Positions 13,701-29,239 of a stretch of 64,000 nucleotides of DNA are shown here, piece by piece; within the stretch, counting starts at the first letter, position 1; every line of letters starts with the position of its first letter. The notes under the pieces were generated by a model. It was not told where the DNA came from, ran no database searches, and was given only the letters and a program-made list of their open reading frames with translations. This DNA is from Thiomonas arsenitoxydans. GTDB lineage: Bacteria > Pseudomonadota > Gammaproteobacteria > Burkholderiales > Burkholderiaceae_C. The position numbers were made by a program, and so were the translations under genes. Location: NCBI RefSeq assembly GCF_000253115.1, contig NC_014145.1:124001-188000 (forward strand), written 5' to 3'.

Positions 13701-13815
13701 CCGCGCCATCGTCATCGACCCCACTCAGGGCTACAAACCTTTCGTCTACAACAACGGGCAATGGGAGGAGCGCGCACCGCTCGTTGCCCAGACTCAGGAG
13801 GATCTCGTCGCATGA
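10702..13815 (+). CDS. dabA: DAB inorganic carbon pump, carbonic anhydrase-like subunit (DUF2309)
   Basis: A 1037-residue soluble protein of the DUF2309/UPF0753 family, which works with DabB to convert CO2 to bicarbonate unidirectionally at the cytosolic face of the membrane. The beta-carbonic-anhydrase-like zinc residues can be placed: Cys460 and Asp462 in CIDVRSE, His719 in IVGHQGQTE and Cys734 in LDCGACGG. The His-to-Cys spacing of 15 is the one I recall for the Halothiobacillus enzyme. The start at 10702 has a GGGGG/TTGGG ribosome site and overlaps the upstream gene by 16 bases. Its stop overlaps the next start by four bases (ATGA). A longer in-frame extension upstream is discounted because it would overlap the membrane gene extensively. 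Confidence 0.95.
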   Translation: MVDALNLAKRLRVRSTAYVAGEPVPYFWPMRTFIHHNPLYGLEHLPFEQAVRRGAELFHARMFLPRSNYQHWQREGKVQAQTLAQEIERRAQQLPAVTGIDWPQWLHAMMQAEHDRDFVVPGALTADVHAALHAQTATQQTVDVATLLPALKHRLHAHTLPEAVDALWGTRLADELDELVIKSCLDFFDEDQSSWRMPGRERGLFAAWSEVTRRNARMFLRGLNVRRILDRVEDAESAVVHVMEEMGVDTEDWSAYFTRELTRLHGWTGFVRWRASAKHYYWAQRYPADIVDLLAIRLIVGLALLQESARHRGTPVQRGQLDALLQERSAECLLREALHSGAVLPDWAQRIDDTLARGHCARCDDLLQRYWPLWQRKLAQEQADALRALTVAAKATPALEALDPSGVQGLLQGLQEFGEQEGMVWTLAMEAQSIDHLLARVQVPQDLPADKRPFAQAWFCIDVRSEPIRRHLERVGDYQTFGIAGFFGVPVGFLGYGKGSESHFCPAVVTPKNLVLELPAALDPNDEDFVSTLGHVLHDLKSSVLSPYVTVEAVGMLFGLDLFGKTLAPLGYSRWRSRIDAEKPVTRLLVDKLTREQADSIIRTLQRAMIVKALHAELHIDRERVDDAMIRELRETALRHRSGPTRLRESFGVSDKQEAEFIDKLREVYRVDPDFAGYQLVRLGRIGYSLDEQVNYVHTALTMIGLTQTFSRFVLIVGHQGQTENNPYESALDCGACGGGSGLVNARVLSQMANKTAVRERLATMGITIPEDTWFLPAVHTTTTDSIELLDLDLLPPRLLVYLERLRNGLRAASRLAAAERMPKLMSSPRELDPAHAYRLAHRLAVDWSQTRPEWGLSKNVYGIIGRRSLTEAADLEGRPFLQSYDWRCDPKGRLLENILAAPVVVGEWINLEHFFSTVDNAHMGSGSKAYHNVAGRFGVMTGNLSDLRTGLPMQTVMREGRPYHEPMRLIALIEAPLDFAGRALQSVVKVKSLVLGGWIRAIVIDPTQGYKPFVYNNGQWEERAPLVAQTQEDLVA

Positions 13816-14138
13816 ACGCCATCAAGCTGTATCCGCTGAAAAAACTCGAAATCATCCTGGAAGGAGCGCACAAGGAATTCGCCACCGACCTGCTCGACCG
13901 CGCCGGTGTGAAGGGTTACACCATCGTCGGCAACCTGTCGGGCAAAGGCAGCCACGGCATGTACGAAGGCCACCTCATGTTCAATGAGGACGATGCGCTG
14001 ATCATGATCATCGCTGCGGTGCCCGAGGAACTCGTGGGCCCGCTGCTCGAAGGCTTCCAGCCCTTTTTCGAGGCGCACTCCGGCGTGGTGTTCGTGCACG
14101 ACATTCAGGTCGGGCGCCCCATCAAATTCCGCAACTGA
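13812..14138 (+). CDS. Carboxysome-associated PII-like protein (CPII)
   Basis: A 108-residue PII-superfamily protein. The ferredoxin-like fold pattern is visible: beta strand KLEIILEG, helix FATDLLDRAG, a shortened T-loop around GNLSGKGSHG (about residues 41-50), then LIMIIAAVPEE and a C-terminal VVFVHDIQVGR. A protein of this type from Thiomonas intermedia K12 has been described as binding ADP/AMP and bicarbonate; the sequence here looks like the same protein, by memory only. It overlaps dabA by four bases, which fits a role in regulating carbon uptake by the DAB complex according to bicarbonate and energy state. It is the last gene before the roughly 295-base cbbL leader. Confidence 0.92.
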   Translation: MNAIKLYPLKKLEIILEGAHKEFATDLLDRAGVKGYTIVGNLSGKGSHGMYEGHLMFNEDDALIMIIAAVPEELVGPLLEGFQPFFEAHSGVVFVHDIQVGRPIKFRN

Positions 14139-14433
14139 TCGGCGCCGAGACGGATCGGATGATTTAGTTTTCCTGAACGAAAGTGTTGTCGATATAAATT
14201 GATTCTTATGTGAGCGGGGCGGTATTCTTCAATCCGCTTTCAAGGATATGCGGTTTGTGCAGAGATCTTCTGACCTCTCACGGCTGCTTGGAATTCCAAG
14301 CAGCGCAACGCAAGACGGGTCGTCCCGACTTGTTCTGTGTTGCGGTATCAAAGAGACTTTTTGTTGGCCGCCCGTACCTGTTGGCCAGAACATTGAAATT
14401 TTTGTCACGTTTCATCGCTAAGGAGTGATCGAT
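14139..14433 (+). promoter_or_regulatory. Promoter and leader region of the cbbL carboxysome operon
   Basis: This 295-base gap has no gene. It holds a TTA-N7-TGA element at 14164-14176 that fits the TNA-N7-TNA pattern of CbbR half sites, a TATAAA at 14193-14198 that could be a -10 box with a poor -35 near 14170, and a perfect 22-base palindrome at 14283-14304. The AAGGAG ribosome site for cbbL is at 14420-14425. Promoter assignment is inference from motif and position. The GC content is clearly lower than in the flanking genes. Confidence 0.5.
14283..14304. repeat. Perfect 22-bp palindrome in the cbbL leader
   Basis: GCTGCTTGG followed by AATT and CCAAGCAGC: nine-base arms around a self-complementary centre containing an EcoRI-type site. 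In RNA it would form a nine-pair stem with a four-base loop, about 130 bases before the cbbL start. It could be an operator, a transcript-stabilising stem or an attenuator. Confidence 0.7.
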
Positions 14434-15855
14434 ATGGCAGTTAAGACCTATCAGGCCGGCGTTAAGGAGTACCGGCAAACCTATTGGATGCCGGAGTACA
14501 CCCCTCTGGACACCGATCTACTGGCCTGCTTCAAGATCACCCCGCAAGCGGGCGTCGATCGCGAAGAGGCTGCAGCCGCTGTGGCGGCCGAGTCGTCCAC
14601 CGGCACCTGGACCACGGTGTGGACCGATCTGCTGACCGACATGGACTACTACAAGGGCCGCGCCTACCGCATCGAAGACGTGCCCGGCGACGACACCTGC
14701 TTCTACGCCTTCATCGCCTATCCGATCGACCTGTTCGAAGAAGGCTCGGTGGTCAACGTGTTCACCTCGCTGGTGGGCAATGTGTTCGGCTTCAAGGCCA
14801 TCCGCGCCCTGCGCCTGGAAGACATCCGCTTCCCGATCGCCTACGTCAAGACCTGCAACGGCCCGCCCAACGGCATCCAGGTCGAGCGCGACGTGATCAA
14901 CAAATACGGCCGTCCGCTGCTGGGCTGCACCATCAAACCCAAACTGGGTCTGTCGGGCAAGAACTACGGCCGCGCCGTGTACGAATGCTTGCGCGGTGGT
15001 CTCGATTTCACCAAGGACGACGAGAACATCAACTCGCAGCCCTTCATGCGCTGGAAGCAGCGTTTCGACTTCGTGCAGGAAGCCACGCTCAAGGCCGAGC
15101 AGGAAACCGGCGAGCGCAAGGGCCACTACCTGAACGTGACCGCCCCGACCCCGGACGAAATGTTCAAGCGTGCGGAGTACGCCAAGGAAATCGGCGCGCC
15201 CATCATCATGCACGACTACATCACCGGCGGCTTCTGCGCCAACACCGGCCTGGCGCAATGGTGCCGCGACAACGGCATGCTGCTGCACATCCACCGCGCC
15301 ATGCACGCCGTGCTTGACCGCAACCCGCACCACGGCATCCACTTCCGCGTGCTGACCAAGATCCTGCGTCTGTCGGGTGGCGACCACCTGCACACCGGCA
15401 CCGTGGTGGGCAAGCTCGAAGGCGACCGCGCTTCCACCCTGGGCTGGATCGACCTGCTGCGCGAATCGTATGTGCCGGAAGACCGCAGCCGCGGCATCTT
15501 TTTCGATCAAGACTGGGGCTCCATGCCCGGCGCCTTCGCCGTGGCCTCCGGTGGCATTCACGTGTGGCACATGCCCGCGCTGGTGACCATCTTCGGCGAT
15601 GATTCCGTGCTGCAGTTCGGCGGCGGCACCCTCGGCCACCCCTGGGGCAACGCGGCCGGCGCCGCAGCCAACCGCGTGGCGCTCGAAGCCTGCGTGCAAG
15701 CCCGCAATGAAGGTCGTCAGGTTGAAAAGGAAGGTCGCGAGATTCTCACCGCAGCCGCCCAGCATTCGCCCGAACTGAAAATCGCCATGGAAACCTGGAA
15801 AGAAATCAAGTTCGAGTTCGACACCGTCGACAAGCTGGACGTCACCAACAAGTGA
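14434..15855 (+). CDS. cbbL: Ribulose-1,5-bisphosphate carboxylase/oxygenase large subunit, form IA
   Basis: A 473-residue Rubisco large subunit. The active site is intact: [10 protein letters not shown] contains Lys194, the lysine carbamylated for Mg binding (spinach Lys201), and the loop-6 region and [13 protein letters not shown] motif are present. The enzyme fixes CO2 on ribulose bisphosphate; linkage to cbbS and csoS2 marks it as the carboxysomal form IA type. The start at 14434 (MAVKTYQAG) has AAGGAG eight bases upstream; an ATG nine bases earlier has no suitable ribosome site. cbbS follows after 68 bases. Codon use is strongly biased, as expected for a highly expressed gene. Confidence 0.98.
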
Positions 15856-15923
15856 CCGATCCCGGTGCGGTGGCCGCTGAGGCCGCCGCTGCCTGACACC
15901 GTTTGCTCTCAAAGGAATTCATC

Positions 15924-16253
15924 ATGGCCACTGTGCAAGCCTACAAAGCCACCAAGAAGTACGAAACCTTCTCTTATCTGCCGCAAATGACGCCCGAACA
16001 GGTGCGTCGCCAGATTGCCTACACCATCGCCCAGGGCTGGAACCCCGCGGTGGAGCACACCGAAAAGGGCACCTCAGCTCGCGTGAGCTTCTGGTACATG
16101 TGGAAGCTGCCGCTGTTCGGCGAGCAGTCCGTCGATGCGGTGCTGGCTGAACTTGAGGCCTGCCACCGCGAATTTCCTGACCACATGGTGCGTTTTGTCG
16201 CTTATGACAACTACGCCCAGAGCCAGGGTCTCGCGTTCGTGGTCTACCGCTGA
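15924..16253 (+). CDS. cbbS: Ribulose-1,5-bisphosphate carboxylase small subunit
   Basis: A 109-residue form IA small subunit, recognised from [19 protein letters not shown] at the N-terminus and the [20 protein letters not shown]-terminal strand pair. It caps the large-subunit octamer. Together with CbbL it forms the surface that the CsoS2 N-terminal repeats bind in alpha-carboxysomes. The ATG at 15924 has AAAGGA upstream. The 115 bases that follow before csoS2 contain small hairpins, which may lower downstream expression relative to Rubisco. Confidence 0.98.
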
Positions 16254-16311
16254 TCGCGGATCTGGCGTGATGGCATGGATGCCGTCGCGCCGGTTTTCCG
16301 GGGCCGCGTGC

Positions 16312-16334
16312 CTCGGGTTCAGGCTCCGAGTTTT
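16312..16334 (+). terminator. Possible attenuator hairpin between cbbS and csoS2
   Basis: CTCGG (16312-16316) pairs with CCGAG (16326-16330) around a nine-base loop and is followed by TTTT. A second small stem, CCGG-TTTT-CCGG, lies at 16290-16301. Both are weak, so at most a partial terminator is suggested. The position fits the need for much more Rubisco than CsoS2. Confidence 0.35.
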
Positions 16335-16368
16335 CTGAATTCACGACTTCTCTGCTTCGAGGTCCACC

Positions 16369-19107
16369 ATGACATATCCTGCCGAACGCCATGCGCAGGC
16401 GACCCTTTCGGGTCGCGAGCTGGCACTCAAGCGGCGCCAGGCCATGGCGCTGCATGGCAAGGCCGGTTCGGCCAAGCCTGCTGGCGCCCCTGCGCGCCAA
16501 AGGCCGGAGATGGCTGCCGCATCTTCTGCTGCTTCTTCGCAGTCGCGGCCCGCCTCCGCCGTATCGGCAGCCCCTGTCGTGCGTGCGGCCGCCTTTGCCT
16601 CCGCCTCTGCGCCCACCGCGTCCTTGAATCCGCCGCAGGCGCAGCTCAGTCCAGCGCGTGCGCGCCGCCAGGCGCTGTCGCAGCAGGGCAAGGCAGCGAT
16701 CAAACTGGCTGGAAGCGGCGGCCCGAGCGCGCATCTGCGCCCCTCGGTCGCTGCGATCTCTAGTGAGGCTTCTTCTCGTGATGCATCCGCGAGTTGCGGC
16801 TGCGCCACCGAGCAGTCCTGTGGTTGCGGTTGCGCCGATGCGGCTGCGGCGCCATCCACCCAGAGCGCGATGTTCGCACCCGCTGCCGAGGTGTCAAACG
16901 CTGTTCGCGCGGTGCCGATGGCGGGAGGTCGCGCCCTGGCGCAGGCCCGCCGTGCCGCGCTGGCGCAGGATGGCAAGGCTGGTCTGCGTCGTGTGGCGCA
17001 GGCCACCAAGATTGCGGCGTCGCTTCCGGGGCAGGATTGGCAAGTCGCCATGAGCAAGGGAGCAACCGCTCGCCAAGTGGCGATGCAGCGTCGTCATGTG
17101 CAGTCGCTCGTCGGCCGCGCGGGCGCCTGCGCCTCTGCCGAGTCCTCGCGCCCCAGTGGTCGCATGAAGGCTCGCAACACGCAGGCTCCCGTGCCGATGA
17201 AGGTCGAGGAAGGTCACACCCTTTCGGGCCAACGCGTGACGGGCACTCAAGTCGAACGCAGCCAGCGCGTCAGCGGCAACGAGCCGGGCTCCTGCCGCGC
17301 CATCACCGGAACCGAATACATCGGCTCCGAGCAATTCGACACCTTGTGCAAGACCCGCCCCGCTCCCAATCCGCCGAAGGTGGGCGTGAGCACCACGCTG
17401 CGCGAACAGCGGGTCACCGGGACCGAAGTGGGCCGGTCCTCCAAAATGACCGGCGACGAGCCAGGTTCTTGCCGCGCCATCACCGGTACCGACTATTTGA
17501 GCGCAGAGCGGTACAAAGAATTCTGCGACACCCGCCCTCAACCCGGCGCTCAAAAGGTCGGCCGCGGCACCACCGAAATGGGTCAGCGCTTCACCGGCAC
17601 TTTGGTGGATCGCCCGGTGAAAGTCACCGGCGGCGAGCAAGGCTCGGATCGCACCGTCACCGGCACCAGTTACAGCATGGCCAGTGCGGATACCGCGCCG
17701 AACAAGGTCGAGATTTCCACCACGGCGCAAGGCAAGGCCGTGACGGGAGCGGGTCTGGGTGCGCGCAAAGGTATGACGGGCGATGAGGCCGGCGCCTGCC
17801 GCCCGGTGACGGGCACGCAATATCTGTCGAGCGAGCAGTTCGTGCAGGTCTGCGGCACCGAAGCCCCGGCGCAGCCGCGCAAGGTCAGCGTGATGTCCAG
17901 CCGAGATGGTCAGAGTGTGACCGGCACCGATGTGGGTCGCAGTCCGCAAGTGACCGGCAGCGAAGCGGGTTCCGCTCGCGCCATCACGGGCAATCAGTAT
18001 TTCAATGCCAAAGACTTCGGCGGCGCTTCCACTGCGGCGCCGGCCAAGGTCAGTTCGATGCAGACGCTCAGTGGCCGGTCGGTGACCGGTTCAGAGGTCG
18101 CGCCCAGCCCAAAATTGTCCGGTGATGAGTCATACGGGTGCCAACCCGTCACCGGCGTCGACTATATCGGCACCCAACAACTGGCCGCAGTGTGCGAAAC
18201 CGCACCGGCCATCGCACCCGTCGCGAAAGTGGCGGTCGACCAGACCTGGAAGGGTCAGAAGGTCACAGGAAGTCATGCGGGCCGTAGTCAGCGCGTCACC
18301 GGCAACGAGGCCGGCGCCTGTGCGCCCATCAGCGGCAACAGCTATTTCGGCCAGGGGCAGTATGCCGAGTTCTGCGCGGCGCCTGCGCTGCAGCAACAGC
18401 GCAACCTGCAACGTGACAGCACCACGGTTTCGCTGCGCGCCATTACCGGAGACCGGCCTGGCGCCGGAGGCTCGGTGATGACCGGTGACGAACGTGGCGC
18501 CTGCGAGCCGGTAACTGGTACGCCTTATCTGGGCATGGACACCATGCCGGGCCAATGCGCCACCAGTGGCCGTTTCGTCTCGCGCGCTCGACCGGTCGAG
18601 GAGCCTGTGCGCGATCCGGCTCCTGCGGGCTTCAGCATTCTGACCCGCGGGCATGCCTCGCTGGGACGTGAACGCGATCAAGCCGTGACCGGTAACGGTA
18701 TGGGCTCGGAGCGCATCTCCGGCTCGATCAACAAGGCCGAAGGTCTGATTACCGGCACCCCCGAGTTCCGCAAGCAGGATGTGCAGCGACTGCAAGCCCA
18801 GCAGCAGGTGCAGAAAGACGCTCTGCTGCAACGTGCGGCGCAGCGCCTGAGTGGCGAGGGCAGTCAGCAAGGCACCAAAGTTTCGGGTGACGTGTGGCTC
18901 GACAAATCGCGCGTAACCGGCACGGAAGGCACGTCGAGCTTGATGCGCAATCTGTCGATGCGCGGCCAGCCCCGTGGTGCGGGCGCCAATGCCACCACGT
19001 TCCGCGAGGTGGAGCGTCCCGAGGTGCCCGCATCGCGTGTGACCGGCTCGTCAGGCAACACCGAACGCGGTGCGCCGGTGACCGTTTCCGGCGGCGCGCG
19101 CGGCTGA
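16369..19107 (+). CDS. csoS2: Carboxysome scaffold protein CsoS2
   Basis: A 912-residue, largely disordered scaffold. N-terminal Rubisco-binding repeats (basic helices with RRQ/RR cores) are at about residues 15-31, 96-108, 187-203 and 234-249. The middle region, about 282-680, holds about seven M-type repeats with the pattern VTG...VTG...ITGTxY, each mostly ending in a paired-Cys module. The shell-binding C-terminal region (about 683-912) ends in SRVTGSS...VTVSGGARG. A Cys-rich cluster, CGC-x4-CGCGC, lies at residues 143-154 between N-repeats 2 and 3. The protein links Rubisco to the shell from inside the carboxysome. No slippery run of six T or A was seen that would explain the frameshifted short form known in Halothiobacillus. 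Confidence 0.97.
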   Translation: MTYPAERHAQATLSGRELALKRRQAMALHGKAGSAKPAGAPARQRPEMAAASSAASSQSRPASAVSAAPVVRAAAFASASAPTASLNPPQAQLSPARARRQALSQQGKAAIKLAGSGGPSAHLRPSVAAISSEASSRDASASCGCATEQSCGCGCADAAAAPSTQSAMFAPAAEVSNAVRAVPMAGGRALAQARRAALAQDGKAGLRRVAQATKIAASLPGQDWQVAMSKGATARQVAMQRRHVQSLVGRAGACASAESSRPSGRMKARNTQAPVPMKVEEGHTLSGQRVTGTQVERSQRVSGNEPGSCRAITGTEYIGSEQFDTLCKTRPAPNPPKVGVSTTLREQRVTGTEVGRSSKMTGDEPGSCRAITGTDYLSAERYKEFCDTRPQPGAQKVGRGTTEMGQRFTGTLVDRPVKVTGGEQGSDRTVTGTSYSMASADTAPNKVEISTTAQGKAVTGAGLGARKGMTGDEAGACRPVTGTQYLSSEQFVQVCGTEAPAQPRKVSVMSSRDGQSVTGTDVGRSPQVTGSEAGSARAITGNQYFNAKDFGGASTAAPAKVSSMQTLSGRSVTGSEVAPSPKLSGDESYGCQPVTGVDYIGTQQLAAVCETAPAIAPVAKVAVDQTWKGQKVTGSHAGRSQRVTGNEAGACAPISGNSYFGQGQYAEFCAAPALQQQRNLQRDSTTVSLRAITGDRPGAGGSVMTGDERGACEPVTGTPYLGMDTMPGQCATSGRFVSRARPVEEPVRDPAPAGFSILTRGHASLGRERDQAVTGNGMGSERISGSINKAEGLITGTPEFRKQDVQRLQAQQQVQKDALLQRAAQRLSGEGSQQGTKVSGDVWLDKSRVTGTEGTSSLMRNLSMRGQPRGAGANATTFREVERPEVPASRVTGSSGNTERGAPVTVSGGARG

Positions 19108-19123
19108 GGCGAGGGCAAGTCCG

Positions 19124-20689
19124 ATGAACACGCTCAAGCGCAGAACGGCTCTCCAGGCCAGTGGCGCCTACCTGCCGACGCAGGAGGGTTCAGCGCCGCA
19201 TTTGCACGCCGTCCGCCCCGCGTTGCATGCAGGCGAGCATGCGATCGACAACCCGGCCTGTGTCATCGGCCCCGGGCAGCGCTGCGAACATGCCTTGGTC
19301 GATTCCGAGCTCAACTGCCGCTTGTCCGACTATGAGCGCATCGTGCGCGGCCGCTTCAGCGGCATTGTCGACGTGCTCAAGGAAATCTCCGCGCTGCAGC
19401 ACGAGCGAGACTTCGCCGAGCGCGCGCAGCGGCTGGCGCAGGAACGGCTGGGCTATGCCTTGCCGCAACAATTGCTCGACGATGCCTGGGTGTCAGGCCT
19501 GGACATGAAGGCGCTGCATACGCACTGCATTTTCCAGAGTTTCAAGGTTTGCGTGGATCGCACCGATGCCGACCAGTCGCTGTGGCTGAACCGCATGGCG
19601 CTCACGCCCGAGTTTCTCGCCGCCTGCGGTTATCACACCGTGGACGTCACTCCCTGCGCCGACGGTCGCCTGCAAGGTTTGCTGCCTTTCGTCTTCCGCA
19701 TGGCGCCCAACCGCAACGTCTATCTCAAGGCGTATGCGGGGGCGATGTTCGATGTCGAAGCCGATATGGTCGATTGGGGTCATCGCGAGATCGAGCGACT
19801 GAGCGGCGGAATTCCCGGTGGCGAATCGCAGAACTATCTGAAGATCGCGGTGTACCACTTCAGCAGCTCGCACTCGCATGAACAGGGCTGCGCCTTTCAT
19901 GCCAGCAATGACAAGCAGGCGGTGGAGTCGGCCAAGCAGCGTCTGGACGAATTGCGCATCGCCATCGAACGCACCTATGGCGTGGGCGCCGCGCCGGACA
20001 TTCTGCTCGTCGGCCTCGACACGGATGTGGATGCGCTGCGCATTCACCTGCCGGATGCCGACGGCGATGTGAATCCCTACCGTTACGTCGATACGGCAGA
20101 GCTGTACCGCGAAACCGTGGGGCTGACGGCACAAGCCGCTCGGGCTCACATTGCGCAGCGGGTGGACGAAGCGCAGAACATGGACGGTTGGGCGCAGGGA
20201 CGCGGCGTGATGATCCCGGGCATGCGGCAGCTAGTACTGGCGCTGGCTGAGGCCAATCTGTCGCAGATCGAGTATGTGATCCATCACCATCAGGGCCGCT
20301 ACACCGTGCTGGGCCACGACGAAGAGTTCATCTGCGCCGGCGAAGCCACGCAGTATGTGCAGATGCGCAATAAGTATTACTTCGCCCATCTCGATACGGT
20401 CGAGGAAGGCGCGGCCGATGTCGATGTCGGCATCAAGATTTTTACCGGCCTGAACGTGCGGCATGGCCTGAGCGTGCCCGTGCTGGTGCATTTTTACTAT
20501 TCGTCGCGCGTGCCCGGCTCGCGCGAACGCGCGCTCAACCGCGCAAAACAAGTCAAGGCGGCCATCGAAGCGAGGTATCCGGCGCTGGTGGCGCGGGAAC
20601 TGCTGACCTGCCGCATGGCGCTGTCCGACCGTTTCGACACCGAACGCTGCGTGTTCGTTGACGAGGCGGAGGCGGACTCAGGACATTGA
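19124..20689 (+). CDS. csoSCA: Carboxysomal carbonic anhydrase CsoSCA (CsoS3)
   Basis: A 521-residue beta-class-derived carbonic anhydrase that dehydrates bicarbonate to CO2 next to Rubisco in the carboxysome lumen. Zinc ligands can be assigned as Cys178 in PCADGRL, His245 in YHFSSSH and Cys256 in EQGCAF, with the catalytic Asp180/Arg182 pair in the same CxDxR motif. The first 60 residues are low complexity and probably carry the Rubisco- or shell-docking segment. The ATG at 19124 follows the csoS2 stop by 16 bases with GAGGG as ribosome site. csoS4A follows after 10 bases. Confidence 0.97.
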   Translation: MNTLKRRTALQASGAYLPTQEGSAPHLHAVRPALHAGEHAIDNPACVIGPGQRCEHALVDSELNCRLSDYERIVRGRFSGIVDVLKEISALQHERDFAERAQRLAQERLGYALPQQLLDDAWVSGLDMKALHTHCIFQSFKVCVDRTDADQSLWLNRMALTPEFLAACGYHTVDVTPCADGRLQGLLPFVFRMAPNRNVYLKAYAGAMFDVEADMVDWGHREIERLSGGIPGGESQNYLKIAVYHFSSSHSHEQGCAFHASNDKQAVESAKQRLDELRIAIERTYGVGAAPDILLVGLDTDVDALRIHLPDADGDVNPYRYVDTAELYRETVGLTAQAARAHIAQRVDEAQNMDGWAQGRGVMIPGMRQLVLALAEANLSQIEYVIHHHQGRYTVLGHDEEFICAGEATQYVQMRNKYYFAHLDTVEEGAADVDVGIKIFTGLNVRHGLSVPVLVHFYYSSRVPGSRERALNRAKQVKAAIEARYPALVARELLTCRMALSDRFDTERCVFVDEAEADSGH

Positions 20690-20699
20690 GGGAAGACAG

Positions 20700-20954
20700 A
20701 TGCGCATCATGCGAGTGGAAAAGACGCTGGTATCGACGAATCGGATCGATTCGTTCGGTCATCGTCCGCTGCTCGTCGTCCAGGAAAAAGCGGGTGGCAC
20801 GCGCAGCGTGGCGGTCGATGCAGTGGGCTGTGTGCCGGGAGATTGGGTGATCTGTGTGGGTTCTTCTGCTGCGCGGGATGCCGCAGGCGCCAAGGATTTT
20901 CCGTCCGATCTGACCATCGTCGGCATCATCGACCATTGGACTGCGGAGGGCTGA
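20700..20954 (+). CDS. csoS4A: Carboxysome pentameric vertex protein CsoS4A
   Basis: An 84-residue member of the EutN/CcmL pentamer family that closes the icosahedral vertices of the shell. The pattern MRIMRVEKTLVSTNRID, LLVVQEK and the C-terminal DLTIVGIIDHW are typical of CsoS4A. The start at 20700 is preceded by GAGGGAAG; 14 further codons upstream are in frame but overlap csoSCA. The stop overlaps the csoS4B start by one base (TGATG), so translation is coupled. Confidence 0.96.
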   Translation: MRIMRVEKTLVSTNRIDSFGHRPLLVVQEKAGGTRSVAVDAVGCVPGDWVICVGSSAARDAAGAKDFPSDLTIVGIIDHWTAEG

Positions 20955-21199
20955 TGGAAATCTGGCGCGTCAAGGACGAACTGGTTTGTACCCGGCGTGC
21001 GCCGGGGCTGAAGTCCGCTTCGTTGCGCGTTTTGCAGGGACAGACAGGCAATATTCAGGTGGCCACCGATCCGGTGGGTGCGCCGGTGGGCAAATGGGTG
21101 TTTACCACCCTGGGCAGTGCAGCAAGGCTGGCCATGCCCGACCCGAGTGTCACCACGGATCTGACCATCTGCGGAATTATCGAGGGCTGGGAGGAGTGA
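20954..21199 (+). CDS. csoS4B: Carboxysome pentameric vertex protein CsoS4B
   Basis: An 81-residue paralogue of CsoS4A (MEIWRVKDELVCTRRAPGL... ending DLTICGIIEGWEE). It is another vertex pentamer needed in about 60 copies per particle at most. Translation is coupled to csoS4A by a one-base overlap. Two hairpins lie in the 105 bases after it, ahead of the abundant csoS1 hexamer genes. Confidence 0.96.
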   Translation: MEIWRVKDELVCTRRAPGLKSASLRVLQGQTGNIQVATDPVGAPVGKWVFTTLGSAARLAMPDPSVTTDLTICGIIEGWEE

Positions 21200-21265
21200 A
21201 CCCGTCAACGGGTTTTCCGTGCAGTCGTGTGAGCAAGAGGGCACCTCGGGCACCGGGCTCGGTGC
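21199..21265 (+). terminator. Two hairpins between csoS4B and the first csoS1 gene
   Basis: The first stem is AACCCG-TCAA-CGGGTT (21199-21214), followed by TT. The second is GCACCG-GGCT-CGGTGC (21250-21265), followed by TT. Neither has a long T-tract, so partial termination or mRNA processing is more likely than full termination. They separate rare vertex proteins from abundant facet proteins. Confidence 0.4.
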
Positions 21266-21304
21266 TTATGGGTGGGAAGTCGACTTTTAGACAAGGAGTG
21301 ACAA

Positions 21305-21601
21305 ATGGCTGAACGGATGGGCATTGCCCTGGGAATGATCGAAACACGCGGCCTGGTGCCGGCGATTGAAGCAGCGGATGCCATGTGCAAGGCGGCGGAC
21401 GTGCGCCTCATTGGCCGCCAGTTCGTGGGAGGCGGCTACGTTACCGTGCTGGTGCGTGGCGAAACCGGTGCGGTGAACGCGGCGGTGCGTGCGGGCGCCG
21501 ATGCCTGCGAGCGCGTGGGTGACGGCCTGGTGGCTGCGCACATCATCGCCCGCGTGCATGGTGAAGTCGAGGGCATTCTGCCCGAAGCGCCGTCGGCCTG
21601 A
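21305..21601 (+). CDS. csoS1: Carboxysome hexameric shell protein CsoS1, first paralogue
   Basis: A 98-residue single BMC-domain protein (MAERMGIALGMIETRGLVPA...). It forms the hexamers that tile shell facets, with a small central pore for bicarbonate and phosphorylated sugars. The pore motif region RQFVGGGYVTV is intact. The AAGGAG at 21293-21298 is a strong ribosome site, matching the need for thousands of copies. It is nearly identical to the next two genes over residues 8-92. Confidence 0.97.
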   Translation: MAERMGIALGMIETRGLVPAIEAADAMCKAADVRLIGRQFVGGGYVTVLVRGETGAVNAAVRAGADACERVGDGLVAAHIIARVHGEVEGILPEAPSA

Positions 21602-21646
21602 GCTGGCGGCAGGCATTGGTAATTGCAAACCTTTGAGGAGCGAGAA

Positions 21647-21943
21647 ATGGCGAACGTGAATGGAATTGCCCTGGGTATGATCGAAACGCGCGGACTGGTG
21701 CCGGCGATCGAAGCGGCTGATGCCATGTGCAAGGCAGCGGAAGTGCGACTGATCGGTCGCCAGTTCGTGGGCGGCGGCTACGTCACCGTGCTGGTGCGCG
21801 GCGAAACCGGCGCGGTCAACGCGGCGGTGCGCGCGGGTGCCGATGCCTGCGAGCGCGTGGGTGACGGCCTGGTGGCTGCGCACATCATCGCCCGCGTGCA
21901 CAGCGAAGTCGAAGGTATTCTGCCTTCCACGCCGAGCGCCTGA
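21647..21943 (+). CDS. csoS1: Carboxysome hexameric shell protein CsoS1, second paralogue
   Basis: A 98-residue BMC-domain hexamer subunit starting MANVNGIALGM. It differs from the first copy at only about ten positions, mostly at the N-terminus and the last ten residues (SEVEGILPSTPSA). The ribosome site is GAGGAG just upstream. In Halothiobacillus the three csoS1 products co-assemble in the facets; the same is inferred here. Confidence 0.97.
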   Translation: MANVNGIALGMIETRGLVPAIEAADAMCKAAEVRLIGRQFVGGGYVTVLVRGETGAVNAAVRAGADACERVGDGLVAAHIIARVHSEVEGILPSTPSA

Positions 21944-22047
21944 TCGGCGCTGATTGGCGCTGATTGGCGTTCAGCATGAATGCGCCGACCCCGCCCGCAT
22001 GGTTGCGCCCAGCGGCGGATGCGGTGAAACCTGATGGAGATTTGGAA

Positions 22048-22386
22048 ATGGCAAGTGTGACGGGTATTGCCCTTGGCATGATCGAAACGCGTGGTCTGGT
22101 GCCCGCGATCGAAGCGGCCGACGCGATGTGCAAGGCAGCGGAAGTGCGACTGATCGGTCGCCAGTTCGTAGGGGGGGGCTACGTGACCGTACTGGTGCGT
22201 GGCGAAACCGGTGCGGTGAACGCGGCGGTGCGTGCGGGCGCCGATGCTTGCGAGCGCGTGGGCGACGGCCTGGTGGCTGCCCACATCATCGCCCGCGTGC
22301 ACAACGAGGTGGAAGGCATACTGCCGACCAGCCCCGATGCAGAGGGCGGTGGCCGCGATGCGGAAATCACCTCCACCCGCAGTTAA
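22048..22386 (+). CDS. csoS1: Carboxysome hexameric shell protein CsoS1, third paralogue with C-terminal tail
   Basis: A 112-residue BMC-domain protein starting MASVTGIALGM. The core matches the two upstream copies, but it carries about 14 extra C-terminal residues (AEGGGRDAEITSTRS-like), comparable to the extended CsoS1B of Halothiobacillus. I chose the ATG at 22048, with GGAG/TTTGG upstream; an in-frame ATG at 21976 would add a proline-rich segment not seen in the family. The 104-base gap before it shows short direct repeats (GGCGCTGATT twice around 21950-21965). Confidence 0.95.
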   Translation: MASVTGIALGMIETRGLVPAIEAADAMCKAAEVRLIGRQFVGGGYVTVLVRGETGAVNAAVRAGADACERVGDGLVAAHIIARVHNEVEGILPTSPDAEGGGRDAEITSTRS

Positions 22387-23106: not shown

Positions 23107-23745
23107 ATGGCAGCCGCCCAAGTGCTGGCCGTCATCAACCAGAAGGGCGGCGCTGGCAAGACCACGCTGGCCATGAATCTGGCTGCCGGGCTGGCCCGGC
23201 GCGGGCCGACGGTGGTGGTGGACCTCGATCCGCAAGGCTCTGCGCTGCAATGGGGTGGCGCAGGCGCGCAGCCCTACCCGGCCACGGTCAAACAGATCTC
23301 GGGCCGCTGGGACGGCGCCGGGCTTCGGCAGACTTACAAGGCCTATCAGCACATCGTGCTCGATTGTCCGCCCTCGCTCGACAGTCATGCCTCCAGCCAG
23401 GCGCTGCGGTCCGCCGATGTCGCGCTCATCCCCGTACTGCCCTCGCCGGTGGATCTTTGGGCCAGCCTGCGCCTGCCGCAAGAGGTGGAAGCCGCGCGCA
23501 CGCAAAACCCGGGGCTGCGTGCCTTTCTGGTGCTCAACCAGATCGAGCAACGCAGCGCCCTTTCGGCCGCCATGCAGGATGCGCTGGCCGAGTTCGGCCT
23601 GCCCGTGCTGCAGGCCGCCATGCGCCGCCGCGCCATCTATCGCGCCTCGGCGCTTGACGGCCTGTCGGTTTACCAGATGGGCGCCCGCGGCCAGGGCGCC
23701 GCGGACGAAATCGACGCCATACTCAAGGAGGTTTACCCATCATGA
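23107..23745 (+). CDS. mcdA: Carboxysome-positioning ParA-type ATPase McdA
   Basis: A 212-residue ParA/MinD-family ATPase with a deviant Walker A (NQKGGAGKTTLAMN, residues about 11-24), the DLDPQGSALQW switch region and the VLDCPPSLD Walker B. Inside an alpha-carboxysome operon and directly ahead of mcdB, it is the McdA that forms nucleoid gradients to space carboxysomes and ensure inheritance. The stop overlaps the mcdB start by four bases (ATGA). Confidence 0.95.
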   Translation: MAAAQVLAVINQKGGAGKTTLAMNLAAGLARRGPTVVVDLDPQGSALQWGGAGAQPYPATVKQISGRWDGAGLRQTYKAYQHIVLDCPPSLDSHASSQALRSADVALIPVLPSPVDLWASLRLPQEVEAARTQNPGLRAFLVLNQIEQRSALSAAMQDALAEFGLPVLQAAMRRRAIYRASALDGLSVYQMGARGQGAADEIDAILKEVYPS

Positions 23746-23999
23746 GCAGCATCAAGGAAAAGTTGACCCAAAGCGTGCGTCAGGCACGCTCCACCCAACC
23801 CGCCAAGACAGCCGGCGCCCCGGCTCGCGCCGCAACGCCCGCCACTGAGGCGGCGAGCAAGCCCGCGTCCGCAGTCAAGGCAGCCGCAGTCGCCAAGCCT
23901 GCTCCGCGCACGGTCGCCAAGGCGTCGGCAATGCCCCTGGCGGCAGAGCCTGCCTCGTCGGCCTCTACGCTGTTCCCGCAGCGCGTCTGGCCCGATTGA
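23742..23999 (+). CDS. mcdB: Carboxysome-positioning adaptor McdB
   Basis: An 85-residue, Ala/Pro/Lys-rich disordered protein with no stable domain. Its end, [11 protein letters not shown], matches the conserved C-terminal motif with an invariant Trp that I recall for alpha-McdB proteins and that is thought to dock on the carboxysome shell. The basic N-terminus ([14 protein letters not shown]) is the likely McdA-contact region. Overlap with mcdA and family context make the call firm despite low complexity. Confidence 0.92.
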
Positions 24000-24066
24000 T
24001 TGCCCGATTGTGTTTTTCGCGCCGGTCGGCCCTGAGCCGTTCCGCGCTTTGTTGAGAGAGATTGCC

Positions 24067-24984
24067 ATGCGTCACGAAGACTACGTTCGCACTTATGCCC
24101 CCCGTCAGGATGCACGTCCTGCGCGAGCCGGTTCCGTCATGCCTGCCGCCCACCGCCCGGCGGCCGATCTGAGCGCAGCGCCTGCGAGCGGGCTGGACGC
24201 CTACCGTGTCGCCCGCGAGCCCTATTACCGTGCGCTGAGCGACGAAGTCGAGCTGTACGAGGCGGCTTATTCCGTGCGCCTGCCGGTCATGCTCAAGGGC
24301 CCCACGGGCTGCGGCAAAACCCGCTTCGTCGAATACATGGCCTGGAAGCTGGGCAAGCCCTTGATTACCGTGGCCTGCAACGAAGACATGACCGCCTCCG
24401 ACCTGGTGGGCCGCTATCTGCTCGATGCCAACGGCACCCGCTGGCAAGACGGCCCGCTGGCCATGGCCGCTCGCTTGGGCGCCATCTGCTATCTCGACGA
24501 AGTGGTCGAGGCGCGGCAAGACACCACGGTCGCCATTCACCCGCTCACCGATGCGCGGCGCATTCTGCCGCTGGAGAAGAAGGGCGAGATCATCGAGGCG
24601 CATCCCGATTTCCAGGTGGTCATCTCCTACAACCCCGGCTATCAGAGCCTGATGAAGGACCTCAAGCAATCCACCAAGCAGCGTTTTGCCGCGCTCGATT
24701 TCCACTACCCCGAGCACGAAGTCGAAGCCGAGATCGTGGCGCATGAATCCGGTGTGGGTCTGGAGGTGGCCAAGAATCTGGTGCACATCGCCGAACGCTC
24801 GCGTAATCTCAAGGGGCACGGGCTCGACGAAGGCATCTCCACCCGCATGCTCATCTACGCCGGCTCGCTGATCGCGCAGGGTGTGGCGCCGCTGGGAGCC
24901 TGCCGCATGGCGCTGGTTCGACCGATCACCGATGATCCGGACATGCGCGATGCGCTGGACGCCGCGGTGACCACCTATTTCTGA
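24067..24984 (+). CDS. cbbQ: Rubisco activase AAA+ subunit CbbQ
   Basis: A 305-residue MoxR-type AAA+ ATPase with Walker A GPTGCGKT (residues 78-85), Walker B ICYLDEV, and the sensor region SYNPGYQ. With CbbO it removes inhibitory sugar phosphates from Rubisco. Typical CbbQ proteins are about 270 residues; here an extra roughly 35-residue Ala/Pro-rich N-terminus precedes the core. The ATG at 24067 has GAGAGAG upstream; an ATG at 24139 would give a shorter product and cannot be ruled out. cbbO follows after 55 bases. Confidence 0.95.
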
Positions 24985-25039: not shown

Positions 25040-27397
25040 ATGGCCATTCACCTCGAAGAATTCCAGGAACTCGTCGACGAGCTGCCGAGCGGTGCGCAGG
25101 ACGTCCTGCGCGCGTCTTGGAACGAGGCGGCGCGCGCCTTCTCCTCGCGCGGCCTAGACAACTTCCTCAAGGGAGCTGCCGCGCTGCACCAGCTTGGCCG
25201 CGGTGAAGAGCTGGTGATCACCTACCTGCAGTCCATGCCCGAACTGGCCCGCGCCATCGGTGAGGACGTGCTGCCCGATCTGGTCAATTTTCTGTTGGCC
25301 ATGGCTTCCAAGACCTCTGGCCAGGTGTTGGCGCTGATCGCTGCCACTGCGCCCCTGGCCGGTCAGCGGTTGGGCGACGAAGAGTTGTTTCGGCAGTTTC
25401 TCAGCGTGCTGTCGCTGATGCTGGCACAGGCGCCGCGAGGCTTGCGGCCCATGCTCGAAAACCTGGAGCGTTTGCTGTCGCAGCTCACCCTGGGCGGGCT
25501 GCGGCGCTGGGCCCAGTGGGGCGCGCAGGCCTACAAGGCTGATTTTGACGGGCAGGTCGCCTACTTTTCGCTGCAAAGCCCCGATGCGCTTTCGATGTTG
25601 CAGCAAGAGCGCAAAGGCACGCTGTTCGTGGACATGCAGCGTCGGCTCAACATCTATCTGCGGGCGATGTGGGGACGTGACTTTTTCATGCGCCCGACCG
25701 CAGGCGACTACGAAAATCGCGAAGGTCTCAAGCCCTTCATCGAGCGCTACGTCATTCACATCGCCGATGCCTACGACGACTTTCGCCCTCTCGGCCCCGA
25801 CACGCCGTCAGAGCAGATCGTCAGCGCGCTGGACGTCTATCGCGCCGCGGCCAACCACTGCGCCGCGCATCTGGTGTTCACCACCGAGCCGCTGTCCATG
25901 CAGGCCCTGTCGCCGCTGCAGATCGGTCTGATCGAAGTCATCGAAGACGCACGCGTCGAGGCGCTGGCTATTGCTCAGTTTCCCAATATGCGTGAGGCGT
26001 GGCTGGCCCTGCAGCCGCCTGCCGACTACAGCGAGCCCAAGACCGTGGGCGATCTGCTCAACCGACTCGCGCGCGCGCTGTTGGAGGAGCACAGCGCCGA
26101 TCCGCATCCTTGGGTACAACAGGGCGTGGCCCATTTTCGCGCCCAGCCCGACTTGTTGGATGCGAAATTCAGCTGGAACGTAGGCATCGACCTCTCACAC
26201 CCCTTGGCGGCGCTGGATCTGCCGGAATACAACCGCCGCACCGATGGTCTGCGCGCGCTTTATCGCGACGACAACCGCGCCATCTGGGAGCTGGAGGAGT
26301 ACGACGAAGCGCAGGCGTTGCAGGCCACCTGGGAGACGCAGCAGCAGGTGCGGCGCAAGGTCAGCGTCATGGAGATGGTCAACGAGGTCGATAACGAATT
26401 CGCCGGTGACGACGCGCAGGAGGTCTGGATTCTGCCCACCGAGTTCTATCTCGACCAGGAAGGGGTGACCATCAACTCGCTCGAAGGCCGCCCGCCGATT
26501 TCCGAGCCCTTTCACTATCCCGAGTGGGACTACCAGATCCAGCTCGACCGCCCAAGCTGGGCCACCGTGCTCGAGCGTCATCCGCCGGTGGGCGATCTGT
26601 CGGTGATCGACGCCATTCTGGCCGAGCACAAGCCGGTGGTGTCGCGTCTGAAATTTCTCATCGAGTCGATGATTCCGCAGGGCCTGCAGCGCATCCGGCG
26701 CCAGGAAGACGGCGACGACATCGACATCGATGCCGCCGTGCGCGCCATGACCGATGTGCGCATGGGCGTTCAGCCCGACCCGCGCATCATGGTGCGGCTC
26801 AAGCGCGCGCAGCGCGATCTGGCCGTGATGGTGTTGCTCGACATGTCCGAGTCGTCCAACGACAAGGTGCGCGGCCACGACTATTCCGTGCTCGATCTCA
26901 CCCGCGCCGCCACCGTGCTGCTGGCCGAAGCGCTGCAACGCATCGGCGACCCGTTCGCCATCCACGGCTTCTGCTCCGACGGCCGCCACGACGTGCACTA
27001 CTACCGCTTCAAGGATTTCGACCAGCCCTATGGTGATCTCGCCCGTGCGCGGCTGGCCGGCATGAAGGGCAGCTACTCCACCCGCATGGGCGCTGCGCTG
27101 CGCCATGCCGGGCACTATCTGGAGCAGCAGCCCAAGCGCAAGAAAATCTGCTTCGTCGTCACCGACGGCGAGCCCGCCGACAACGATGTGCGCGACCCGC
27201 AATACCTGCGGCACGATACCAAGCGCGCAGTCGAACAACTGCTGCAGCAGGGCGTCACGGTCTACGCGCTGTCGCTCGATCCGCACGCCGATCTGTACGT
27301 CTCGCGTATTTTCGGCGTCAAGAACTTCACGGTGATCGACAAGGTCGAACGCCTGCCCGAAAAGCTTCCTATGCTCTACATGAGCCTTACCCGCTGA
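25040..27397 (+). CDS. cbbO: Rubisco activase adaptor CbbO with von Willebrand factor A domain
   Basis: A 785-residue protein with an N-terminal helical adaptor region and a C-terminal VWA domain. The metal-ion-dependent adhesion site DMSES (Asp601, Ser603, Ser605) is intact; it recruits Rubisco to the CbbQ hexamer. The domain starts after [16 protein letters not shown] and includes TDGEPADND (about residue 711). It lies between cbbQ and csoS1D; csoS1D starts 13 bases after it, which suggests the activase and this pseudo-hexamer are made together. Confidence 0.96.
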
Positions 27398-27410: not shown

Positions 27411-28040
27411 ATGAAAATCTCCCTGCGCACTTTCGTCTTCATCGACGCCCTGCAGCCGCAGTTGGCGTCCTATCTGGCCACTTCGTCGCAAGGCTTCTTG
27501 CCCGTGGCCGGCGATGCCTGTCTTTGGGTGGAGGTGGGGCCGGGCATGGCGGTGCACAGCCTGTCGGATGCGGCGCTGAAAAAAACCAACGTGCGCATGG
27601 GCGAGCAGGTGGTCGAGCGCTCTTTCGGCTCGATGGAGCTGCACTACCGCAACCAAAGCGAGGTGCTGGCTGCCGGCGGCGTGATCCTGCAGCAGCTCGG
27701 GGCCAGCGAGCAGTCGCGGCTGCGCTGCAAAGTGGCGTGGAACGAAATCATCCGCGCCATCACCCCCGACCACGCCACCCTCATCAACCGCCAGTTTCGC
27801 AAGGGCTCGATGATCCTGCCGGGCAAGAGCATGTTCATCCTCGAAGTCGAGCCCGCGGGTTATATCGTCTACGCCGCCAACGAGGCGGAGAAGGCGGCCC
27901 AGGTCACCCTTGTCGATGTGCGGCCGTTCGGCACCTTCGGGCGGCTGACCATGATGGGCAACGAGGCCGAAGCCGCCGAAGCGCAGCGGGCGGCGATTGC
28001 CGCCATCGAGCGGCTGAACCAGTCCGCGACGCATCACTGA
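27411..28040 (+). CDS. csoS1D: Carboxysome tandem-BMC pseudohexamer shell protein CsoS1D
   Basis: A 209-residue protein with two fused BMC domains. Segments [39 protein letters not shown] and [19 protein letters not shown] fit the CsoS1D family, whose stacked trimers have large gated pores for metabolites such as ribulose bisphosphate. The length matches Halothiobacillus CsoS1D. The start at 27411 has AGG seven bases upstream. A trypsin-like protease gene follows after only 15 bases. Confidence 0.95.
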
Positions 28041-28055: not shown

Positions 28056-28880
28056 ATGGACATCGATTCCACCGCCAAGCGGCTGCTGTTTTCCACCGTC
28101 CGGGTCGACACCGTGCTCGACGACGGCAGCGAAGGCTCCGGCACCGCCTTCGTCGTGCGCCATACGCATGCCCGCGGCGTGACGGACTTCGTCGTCACCA
28201 ACCGCCATTTGGTGGAGGGCGTGCGGCGTGGCGGGCTGGTGTTCACGCAAAAGCGCCAGGGTCGGCCCGCGTTCGGCCAGCGCTTCCAGCTCAACATCGA
28301 CGAGTTCCCCGCCGCCTGGCATCTACACCCCGACGCTGAGGTCGATCTGGCCCTGGTGCCGCTCGCGCCGCTGCAGCAGGCGGCTGAGCAGCAAGGCGTG
28401 GAGCTTTATTTCGAGCCGATCGACAGCCGACTCATTCCCGACGCCGCGACCTGGCAGCAGTTCGACGCCCTGGAAGACGTGCTGTTCGTCGGCTATCCCA
28501 GCGGCGTGTGGGATCAGGTCAACCTCATGCCCATCCTGCGCCGAGGGACTACGGCGACGCCCGCCGCACTCGACTTTGAAGGGCATCGGCAGTTTCTCAT
28601 CGACGCCGCGGTCTATCCCGGCTCCAGCGGCAGCCCGGTGTTCATCGAACGCCGAGGCGGCCAGATTTCACGGCGCGAGGCCACGCGCGATCTGCTGTTC
28701 GCCGGGGTGGTTGCCGCGGTGTTTTTCCGTGAGGAAGCGCACCACATCGTGCCCGCCCCGGTGCCTGCCAACAACCGGGGCATGGCGCTGGGTTCTGAGA
28801 TGATCGATCTGGGGTTGATCATCAAATCCGATAAAGTGTTCGAGCTCATCCACTCTTACCTTCAGCGCTGGGTGGCCTGA
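28056..28880 (+). CDS. Cytosolic trypsin-like serine protease encoded in the carboxysome operon
   Basis: A 274-residue protein with a trypsin-like peptidase fold (Trypsin_2/Deg-like). The apparent catalytic triad is His51 in VTNRHLVEG, Asp97 in AEVDLALVPL and Ser191 in PGSSGSPVF. There is no signal peptide or membrane segment and no PDZ domain, so it should act in the cytosol, possibly at the carboxysome. The gene lies 15 bases after csoS1D in the same direction. I know of no established role for such a protease in carboxysomes; candidates are processing of CsoS2, shell turnover or a catalytically repurposed binding role. Family recognition is firm; function is unknown. Confidence 0.85.
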   Translation: MDIDSTAKRLLFSTVRVDTVLDDGSEGSGTAFVVRHTHARGVTDFVVTNRHLVEGVRRGGLVFTQKRQGRPAFGQRFQLNIDEFPAAWHLHPDAEVDLALVPLAPLQQAAEQQGVELYFEPIDSRLIPDAATWQQFDALEDVLFVGYPSGVWDQVNLMPILRRGTTATPAALDFEGHRQFLIDAAVYPGSSGSPVFIERRGGQISRREATRDLLFAGVVAAVFFREEAHHIVPAPVPANNRGMALGSEMIDLGLIIKSDKVFELIHSYLQRWVA

Positions 28881-28936: not shown

Positions 28937-29239
28937 ATGCAAGAAAAACCGATTTATCCCGGCTATCACGCCGACGCGCACGGCATGACCCAGCTTGGCC
29001 GGGTGGTGCTAGACGCCTGGGTTTTCGGGCTGCTGCCCGAAGCCGAAGACTGCAAAGGCTGGGACCTGCAGCGCATGCAGGGGCTGATGCAGAAAGTGGA
29101 GGCCGAATGGGATCAGCACGGCAATCTGCCCAGCCGCCTGCCGCCGGAACTCGCCGAGCGTCACCGCGCCCTGTATGAGCGCGCCATGCAGCGTGCGCAG
29201 AGCAAGGGCTGGAACGCCGAGCTCGACGACGAAGACTGA
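28937..29239 (+). CDS. Small protein of unknown function at the end of the carboxysome operon
   Basis: A 100-residue acidic, Trp- and Met-rich protein (MQEKPIYPGYHADAHGMTQLGRVVLDAW...), predicted helical with no membrane segment or signal. I do not recognise a family. It follows the protease gene by 56 bases in the same orientation and ends with ELDDED. Codon use matches its neighbours, so it looks like a real gene and not spurious. It could be a carboxysome accessory or partner of the protease; this is inference from position alone. Confidence 0.75.
   Translation: MQEKPIYPGYHADAHGMTQLGRVVLDAWVFGLLPEAEDCKGWDLQRMQGLMQKVEAEWDQHGNLPSRLPPELAERHRALYERAMQRAQSKGWNAELDDED

Follow-up and report, generated by a model that had tools for sequence, protein, structure and literature searches.

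Among the described relatives of the peptidase encoded in the carboxysome locus considered here, the HtrA/Deg proteases (family S1C: DegP, DegQ, DegS and plant Deg2) have the same protease fold, but they carry a C-terminal PDZ domain that it lacks, the bacterial types are exported to the periplasm whereas it has no signal peptide, and identity is 12–23% in the aligned regions listed. PDC-S45 of PADLOC is a candidate defence peptidase whose profile matches it over the full length (290.5 bits, residues 1–269); it lies not among defence genes but in a cso/Calvin-cycle locus, both in the window and across its clade. The ternary MoxR-vWA-VMAP conflict systems, in the available part of Kaur et al. 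(2020; PMC7159879), bring together genes for an AAA+ ATPase (MoxR), a vWA protein and a trypsin-like peptidase, as is the case here, where the adjacent AAA+/vWA pair is CbbQ-CbbO; Pfam named no VMAP-type third component among eight neighbouring proteins, and its library may lack some VMAP models. With respect to other organelles, MamO and MamE belong to the magnetosome, and the GRM3 microcompartment locus also holds a peptidase gene of unassigned role, although GRM3 is a different BMC type in different hosts and the peptidase family is unstated in the part of Axen et al. (2014; PMC4207490) consulted. In carboxysomes of Halothiobacillus neapolitanus, CsoCbbQ and CbbO form a complex when co-expressed, CbbQ is shell-associated and csoS1D is the terminal gene of the locus, with no protease named in the available sections of Sutter et al. 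(2015; PMC4633670). No description of a carboxysome-locus peptidase was found in titles and abstracts of the open-licence literature on carboxysomes or csoS1D together with proteases, nor in the accessible parts of PMC4207490, PMC4633670, PMC9164163, PMC8217296 and PMC10781756.

The window (the whole 64-kb stretch of Thiomonas DNA analyzed) contains a core cso operon recognized from its ORFs (cbbL, cbbS, csoS2, csoSCA, csoS4A, csoS4B and three csoS1 genes; 14425..22386, plus strand, as are the parA-like gene, cbbQ, cbbO, csoS1D, the peptidase gene with its catalytic codons and the 100-aa protein gene below), with the gene order annotated on the Nitrobacter hamburgensis plasmid; several gene names in the window rest on similarity together with this like-ordered annotation. 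The gene at 13761–14138, 5′ of cbbL, appears to be P-II-like by similarity to P-II genes in other cso loci. Downstream of the operon, genes for a ferritin-like and an acRAF-like protein are followed by a parA-like ATPase gene (23107..23745, Pfam), which we take to be of McdA type, and by the gene of an Ala-rich protein of 85 aa (23742–23999) that ends in FPQRVWPD and presumably resembles the carboxysome positioning protein McdB. Then come cbbQ, encoding a MoxR-type AAA+ ATPase (24010..24984; CbbQ_C and AAA_5 domains), cbbO for a vWA protein (25040..27397; VWA domain) and csoS1D for a tandem BMC shell protein (27411..28040; BMC domain; 228 bits against the CcmP model, under the model cut-off of 340). 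The peptidase gene (28056..28880) starts 15 bases past csoS1D, as the initial annotation had stated, and leads to the gene of a conserved 100-aa protein with no Pfam family (28937..29239), transaldolase and more Calvin-cycle genes.

The 274-aa product has an S1/HtrA fold, with Trypsin_2 as its sole Pfam domain (PF13365; 45.3 bits, above the curated cut-off of 27.6). Its proposed catalytic triad was borne out, since the codons for His51 (28206..28208), Asp97 (28344..28346) and the nucleophile Ser191 in the motif PGSSGSPVF (28626..28628) specify residues that are invariant in all 80 aligned homologues (the best 80 of 162 loci). Hydropathy and inspection found no hydrophobic stretch at the N-terminus, in agreement with the earlier claim that an export signal is absent. 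The sequence is thus that of a predicted cytosolic, apparently active peptidase with an intact triad. Comparison by sequence with solved structures turned up no close relative (best E 0.045). Ala185 is found at the presumed S1-pocket position, as in HtrA proteases, and from this motif the enzyme would be expected to cleave after small hydrophobic residues. dN/dS against four congeners is 0.013, 0.040, 0.038 and 0.027, with Fbp alone ever falling below the peptidase among the genes compared; the gene is under strong purifying selection.

Orthologues were collected by a scan of GTDB species genomes, and the window genes were placed by tblastn on the best 80 of the 162 confirmed loci. Fifty-five of these 80 loci, with 47–98% peptidase identity, are carboxysome or CO2-concentrating loci and form one clade; 46 of them have a core cso gene in the retrieved DNA, and cbbO is found in 43, csoS1D in 37, SbtA in 28 and SulP in 21. 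The other 25 of the best 80, with identity of 42% or less, lie outside carboxysome loci and gave no tblastn match to core cso genes, cbbO, csoS1D, SbtA, SulP or the 100-aa protein. CsoSCA was also sought in whole genomes of this set: it is present in 7 of the 9 whose clade locus lacks a core cso gene, and in 11 of 13 clade genomes (those with little or no cso in the locus DNA) versus 1 of 25 distant ones. The two clade genomes lacking it are L060, a 1.6-Mb Thioalkalivibrio assembly in which parA-cbbQ-cbbO adjoins the peptidase gene, and L076, whose gene order is the same as in the CsoSCA-positive L073 and L075. The association with carboxysome loci proposed by the initial annotation therefore holds for the clade of at least 47% identity, and the scattering of homologues far from cso loci that was to count against it is found in the distant subfamily alone. 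Within the clade, cbbO lies directly 5′ of the peptidase gene, with no csoS1D between, in nine of the best 80 loci (L041, L055, L060, L062, L064, L065, L069, L070 and L086), eight of them with a gap of about 20 bp or less.

Other neighbours in the clade belong to bicarbonate uptake (Pfam assigned representatives to the Sbt_1, P-II and SulP families). SbtA or SulP occurs in 37 of the 55 clade loci (best 80 of 162), and in 35 of the 55 one or other is no more than about 1.7 kb from the peptidase; in the Thiobacillus-type loci (L067, L073–L076) the peptidase gene is placed between SulP and SbtA-SbtB, apart from CbbO. These arrangements raise the possibility that, with CO2 in ample supply, the peptidase trims or removes the SbtA/SulP bicarbonate transporters or the regulator SbtB, a reading that also draws on the distance correlation of 0.79 between peptidase and SbtB, and that we rate as possible but rather doubtful (slightly above our earlier rating, because of those 35 loci). 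Against it, neither SbtA nor SulP is found in 18 of the 55 clade loci (best 80 of 162; some contigs are short) nor, with the same queries, in the 64-kb window; the correlation with SbtA is just 0.25; and both transporters occur in loci of the class sample that lack the peptidase (SbtA in 20 and SulP in 21 of 64).

That sample and a second one, neither selected by the peptidase, show how restricted the gene is. Among the 369 genomes of the class sample, CsoSCA is present in 68 and the peptidase profile matches in 19 (E 0.001); four genomes including the window's exceed 400 bits, all CsoSCA-positive with the two genes 6.0–7.5 kb apart, whereas the next-best match (285 bits) comes from a genome without CsoSCA and three weaker ones in CsoSCA-positive genomes are on contigs different from that of CsoSCA. 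Among the 399 genomes of the order sample, CsoSCA is present in 41 and the profile matches in 28 (E 0.001); the five matches above 400 bits, the window's included, are all in CsoSCA-positive genomes. Of the four from other genomes, two share a contig with CsoSCA (about 7 kb and about 20 kb away), another, on a short contig, adjoins csoS1D, and the last, beside SbtA-SbtB, is truncated by the contig end. Pooled, the strong matches amount to seven genomes plus the window's own, all CsoSCA-positive, at a 400-bit threshold that was set post hoc, once the gap was visible. A strong match is absent from 64 of 68 and 36 of 41 CsoSCA genomes respectively: carboxysomes can do without the peptidase, and most alpha-carboxysome lineages lack it.

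The initial annotation had proposed a special link with csoS1D and suggested checking whether the two genes co-occur. Among 60 near relatives including the window's own genome, an orthologue of nearly full length is present in ten, which are also the ten with CsoS1D. The gene content of 67 class-sample cso loci (window excluded) gave csoS1D in 30, cbbO in 19 and the peptidase in three of the fetched stretches, so that it is missing from 28 of the 30 csoS1D-bearing and 16 of the 19 CbbO-bearing loci. A csoS1D partnership as a general rule was rejected on these counts, to which the nine cbbO-adjacent loci and a distance correlation of 0.53 can be added. What stood of the proposal is the tie to carboxysome loci; a general pairing with csoS1D did not, the CsoS2, CbbO and shell proteins named by the initial annotation are putative substrates, and the gene is part of one alpha-carboxysome lineage.

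The CsoSCA tree of 130 loci (30 with and 100 without the peptidase, called per genome; in two genomes with it, the peptidase is on a different contig) explains why csoS1D-bearing loci may lack it, since one change suffices for the distribution, compared to a mean of 27 under shuffling. The 30 rows with the peptidase make up one side of a branch with SH-aLRT 93 (100 for the 29 rows without L081), and no row lacking the peptidase falls inside this clade. As 22 of the 30 came from the peptidase-directed scan (L052 is the same locus as the sampled L261), it is the window and the seven sampled genomes that speak for an absence of losses. In the peptidase tree of 84 rows, 59 cso-linked rows are united against 25 distant ones (SH-aLRT 98.8). 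Both are quick trees with roots chosen for drawing, and the 84-row tree replaces one with very long rows that gave two changes and flagged long-branch joins; left out were L104 (a copy of L103), L111, L102 and L078 and, from 16 extra rows, L147, L150–L154, L261, L269 and L270. On these trees, the peptidase was acquired once by one alpha-carboxysome lineage, apparently from a widespread stand-alone peptidase family, and is now a stable part of the locus.

Distances between peptidases correlate with those of ParA (0.89), CbbO (0.86), CsoSCA (0.84), the 100-aa protein (0.80), SbtB (0.79), CbbQ (0.78), CsoS1D (0.53) and SbtA (0.25), near-copies from the window's genus being collapsed to one; permuted labels gave an r as high as the observed one in 0 of 2000 trials, except for SbtB (2) and SbtA (27). 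A first run gave Bfr 0.75, acRAF 0.75, CbbS 0.73 (8 loci), CbbR 0.64, SulP 0.59 and CsoS4A 0.46 (a short protein). Partial correlations over 30 loci were 0.48 for ParA, 0.34 for CbbQ, 0.09 for CsoS1D and −0.01 for CbbO (given ParA, CbbQ and CsoS1D). A special tie to CbbO was thus not upheld, the high CbbO value reflecting shared inheritance, and the peptidase gene tracks the whole locus with no single neighbour standing out.

Co-inheritance with CsoSCA in a single lineage, and the position of the gene inside the cso cluster, would also fit an enzyme that processes a single shell or scaffold protein to its mature form (CsoS2, CsoSCA or CsoS1D) and has no part in quality control. We consider this improbable and place it last of the readings, because lineages without the peptidase encode the same shell proteins and because the slippery heptamer of CsoS2, a sequence linked to frameshifting, is kept in loci with the peptidase. 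In the window, csoS2 (16369–19107) has CCCAAAA 63% of the way along the gene; in nine of 11 loci with the peptidase, CCCAAA(A/G) lies at 63–65% of CsoS2 length (a tenth has it at 47% and one lacks it), and at a like position in several loci without it. The idea that the peptidase replaces CsoS2 frameshifting is disfavoured by the same retention.

The distant homologues place the peptidase in a wider family. All seven scanned of the 25 distant ones (best 80 of 162) match PDC-S45 with 302–401 bits, although the carboxysome clade is separate from them on the tree; some occur on plasmids, and among phage records one phage (two records) gave a partial weak match. The nearest relative without cso genes (G258; 42% identity, placement support 78) has as neighbours the genes for a multi-AAA/M41 fusion protease and a WD40-kinase and then a vWA-FHA gene (L271:1836–12856), a setting that resembles the conflict systems of Kaur et al. 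(2020), in the available part of PMC7159879, and that suggests a possible recruitment of the carboxysome peptidase from such a conflict-system-like family. Defence islands were not apparent: among 132 neighbouring proteins (at least 140 aa, within 5 kb) from 24 of the 25 distant loci (best 80 of 162), any one defence family matched two at most within the first 25 families per list, which is suggestive at best, and the commonest Pfam families among the first 25 were transposase (3) and integrase (2).

From this background the peptidase might be a passenger, a defence-type protease carried along by a mobile carboxysome block and without a substrate in the carboxysome, as its own PDC-S45 match, the G258 neighbourhood and the plasmid-borne kin could indicate. 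A peptidase-bearing cso locus is itself on a 295-kb plasmid in N. hamburgensis X14, where the order from cbbL to csoS1D and a “serine protease” is that of the window. We nevertheless regard it as distinctly unlikely: the CsoSCA clade holds no row without the gene (with the selection of 22 of its 30 rows in mind), dN/dS is very low, the order beside cbbO/csoS1D is kept across genera, and PDC-S45 is itself a candidate family that a 27%-identical paralogue in the same genome also matches, if weakly (77 bits). 

Transfer of the gene together with the locus is indicated by the Thiomonas delicata locus (L053), whose peptidase is 93% and 85% identical to the Nitrosomonas/Nitrobacter type; compared with Nitrosomonas eutropha, the peptidase is 93% and CsoSCA 80% identical, versus 70% and 63% compared with the window. 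Judging from such similarities, the peptidase gene moves with the cso locus among Alpha-, Beta- and Gammaproteobacteria. L053 itself looks like a Nitrosomonas/Nitrobacter-type cso locus under a Thiomonas name, by locus replacement or transfer.

To our knowledge, little is settled about carboxysome repair and removal. We propose, with a probability of roughly 0.4, that the peptidase is a dedicated protease for carboxysome or Rubisco proteins that works beside CbbQ-CbbO: the AAA+ ATPase and its vWA adaptor would remodel Rubisco or shell proteins that are damaged, or extract them, and so expose what the peptidase would cut. Assisted proteolysis is proposed because the peptidase gene is usually beside cbbQ-cbbO, and the CsoCbbQ-CbbO complex with its shell-associated CbbQ makes a proteolytic third part plausible. 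The single clade in both trees, the linkage to cso genes, the distance correlations, the low dN/dS, the nine cbbO-adjacent loci, the co-transfer indicated by L053 and the AAA+-M41 and vWA-FHA genes near the G258 peptidase count for this reading. The CbbO-bearing class loci without the peptidase, the Thiobacillus-type separation from CbbO and the many alpha-carboxysome lineages that lack the gene count against it; its odds were slightly lowered because of the CbbO partial correlation. An extended form, in which a conflict-system peptidase joined to the Rubisco activase/vWA pair would make CbbQ, CbbO and the peptidase an ATP-powered organelle protease for opening, editing or dismantling the carboxysomes of one lineage, we hold to be unlikely.

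These results suggest that some carboxysomes, the compartments in which CO2 is fixed, are equipped with a putative maintenance or control protease of their own, and one gene conserved in a lineage with the names Thiomonas, Thiobacillus, Nitrosomonas eutropha and Nitrobacter offers a handle on whether microcompartments possess one. If the extended form is true, a bacterial microcompartment would have a turnover machine dedicated to it in CbbQ-CbbO-peptidase. For alpha-carboxysome transplants, donor loci of this lineage bring the protease gene along, which may have to be kept or omitted deliberately.

The 100-aa protein is found in 31 of the 55 clade loci, within 250 bp 3′ of the peptidase in 26 (best 80 of 162). 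As a specific peptidase partner it is a weak candidate, since it occurs without the peptidase, e.g., beside cbbLSQO in L243 and L253; peptidase-less Rubisco operons with it also include L241, and the product of 28937–29239 is a conserved small protein linked to Rubisco. Additionally, a homologue of LCIB-type carbonic anhydrases, with a Pfam score just under the cut-off, is encoded beside the peptidase gene and divergently from SulP in L040 (6618–7766) and in L073–L076.
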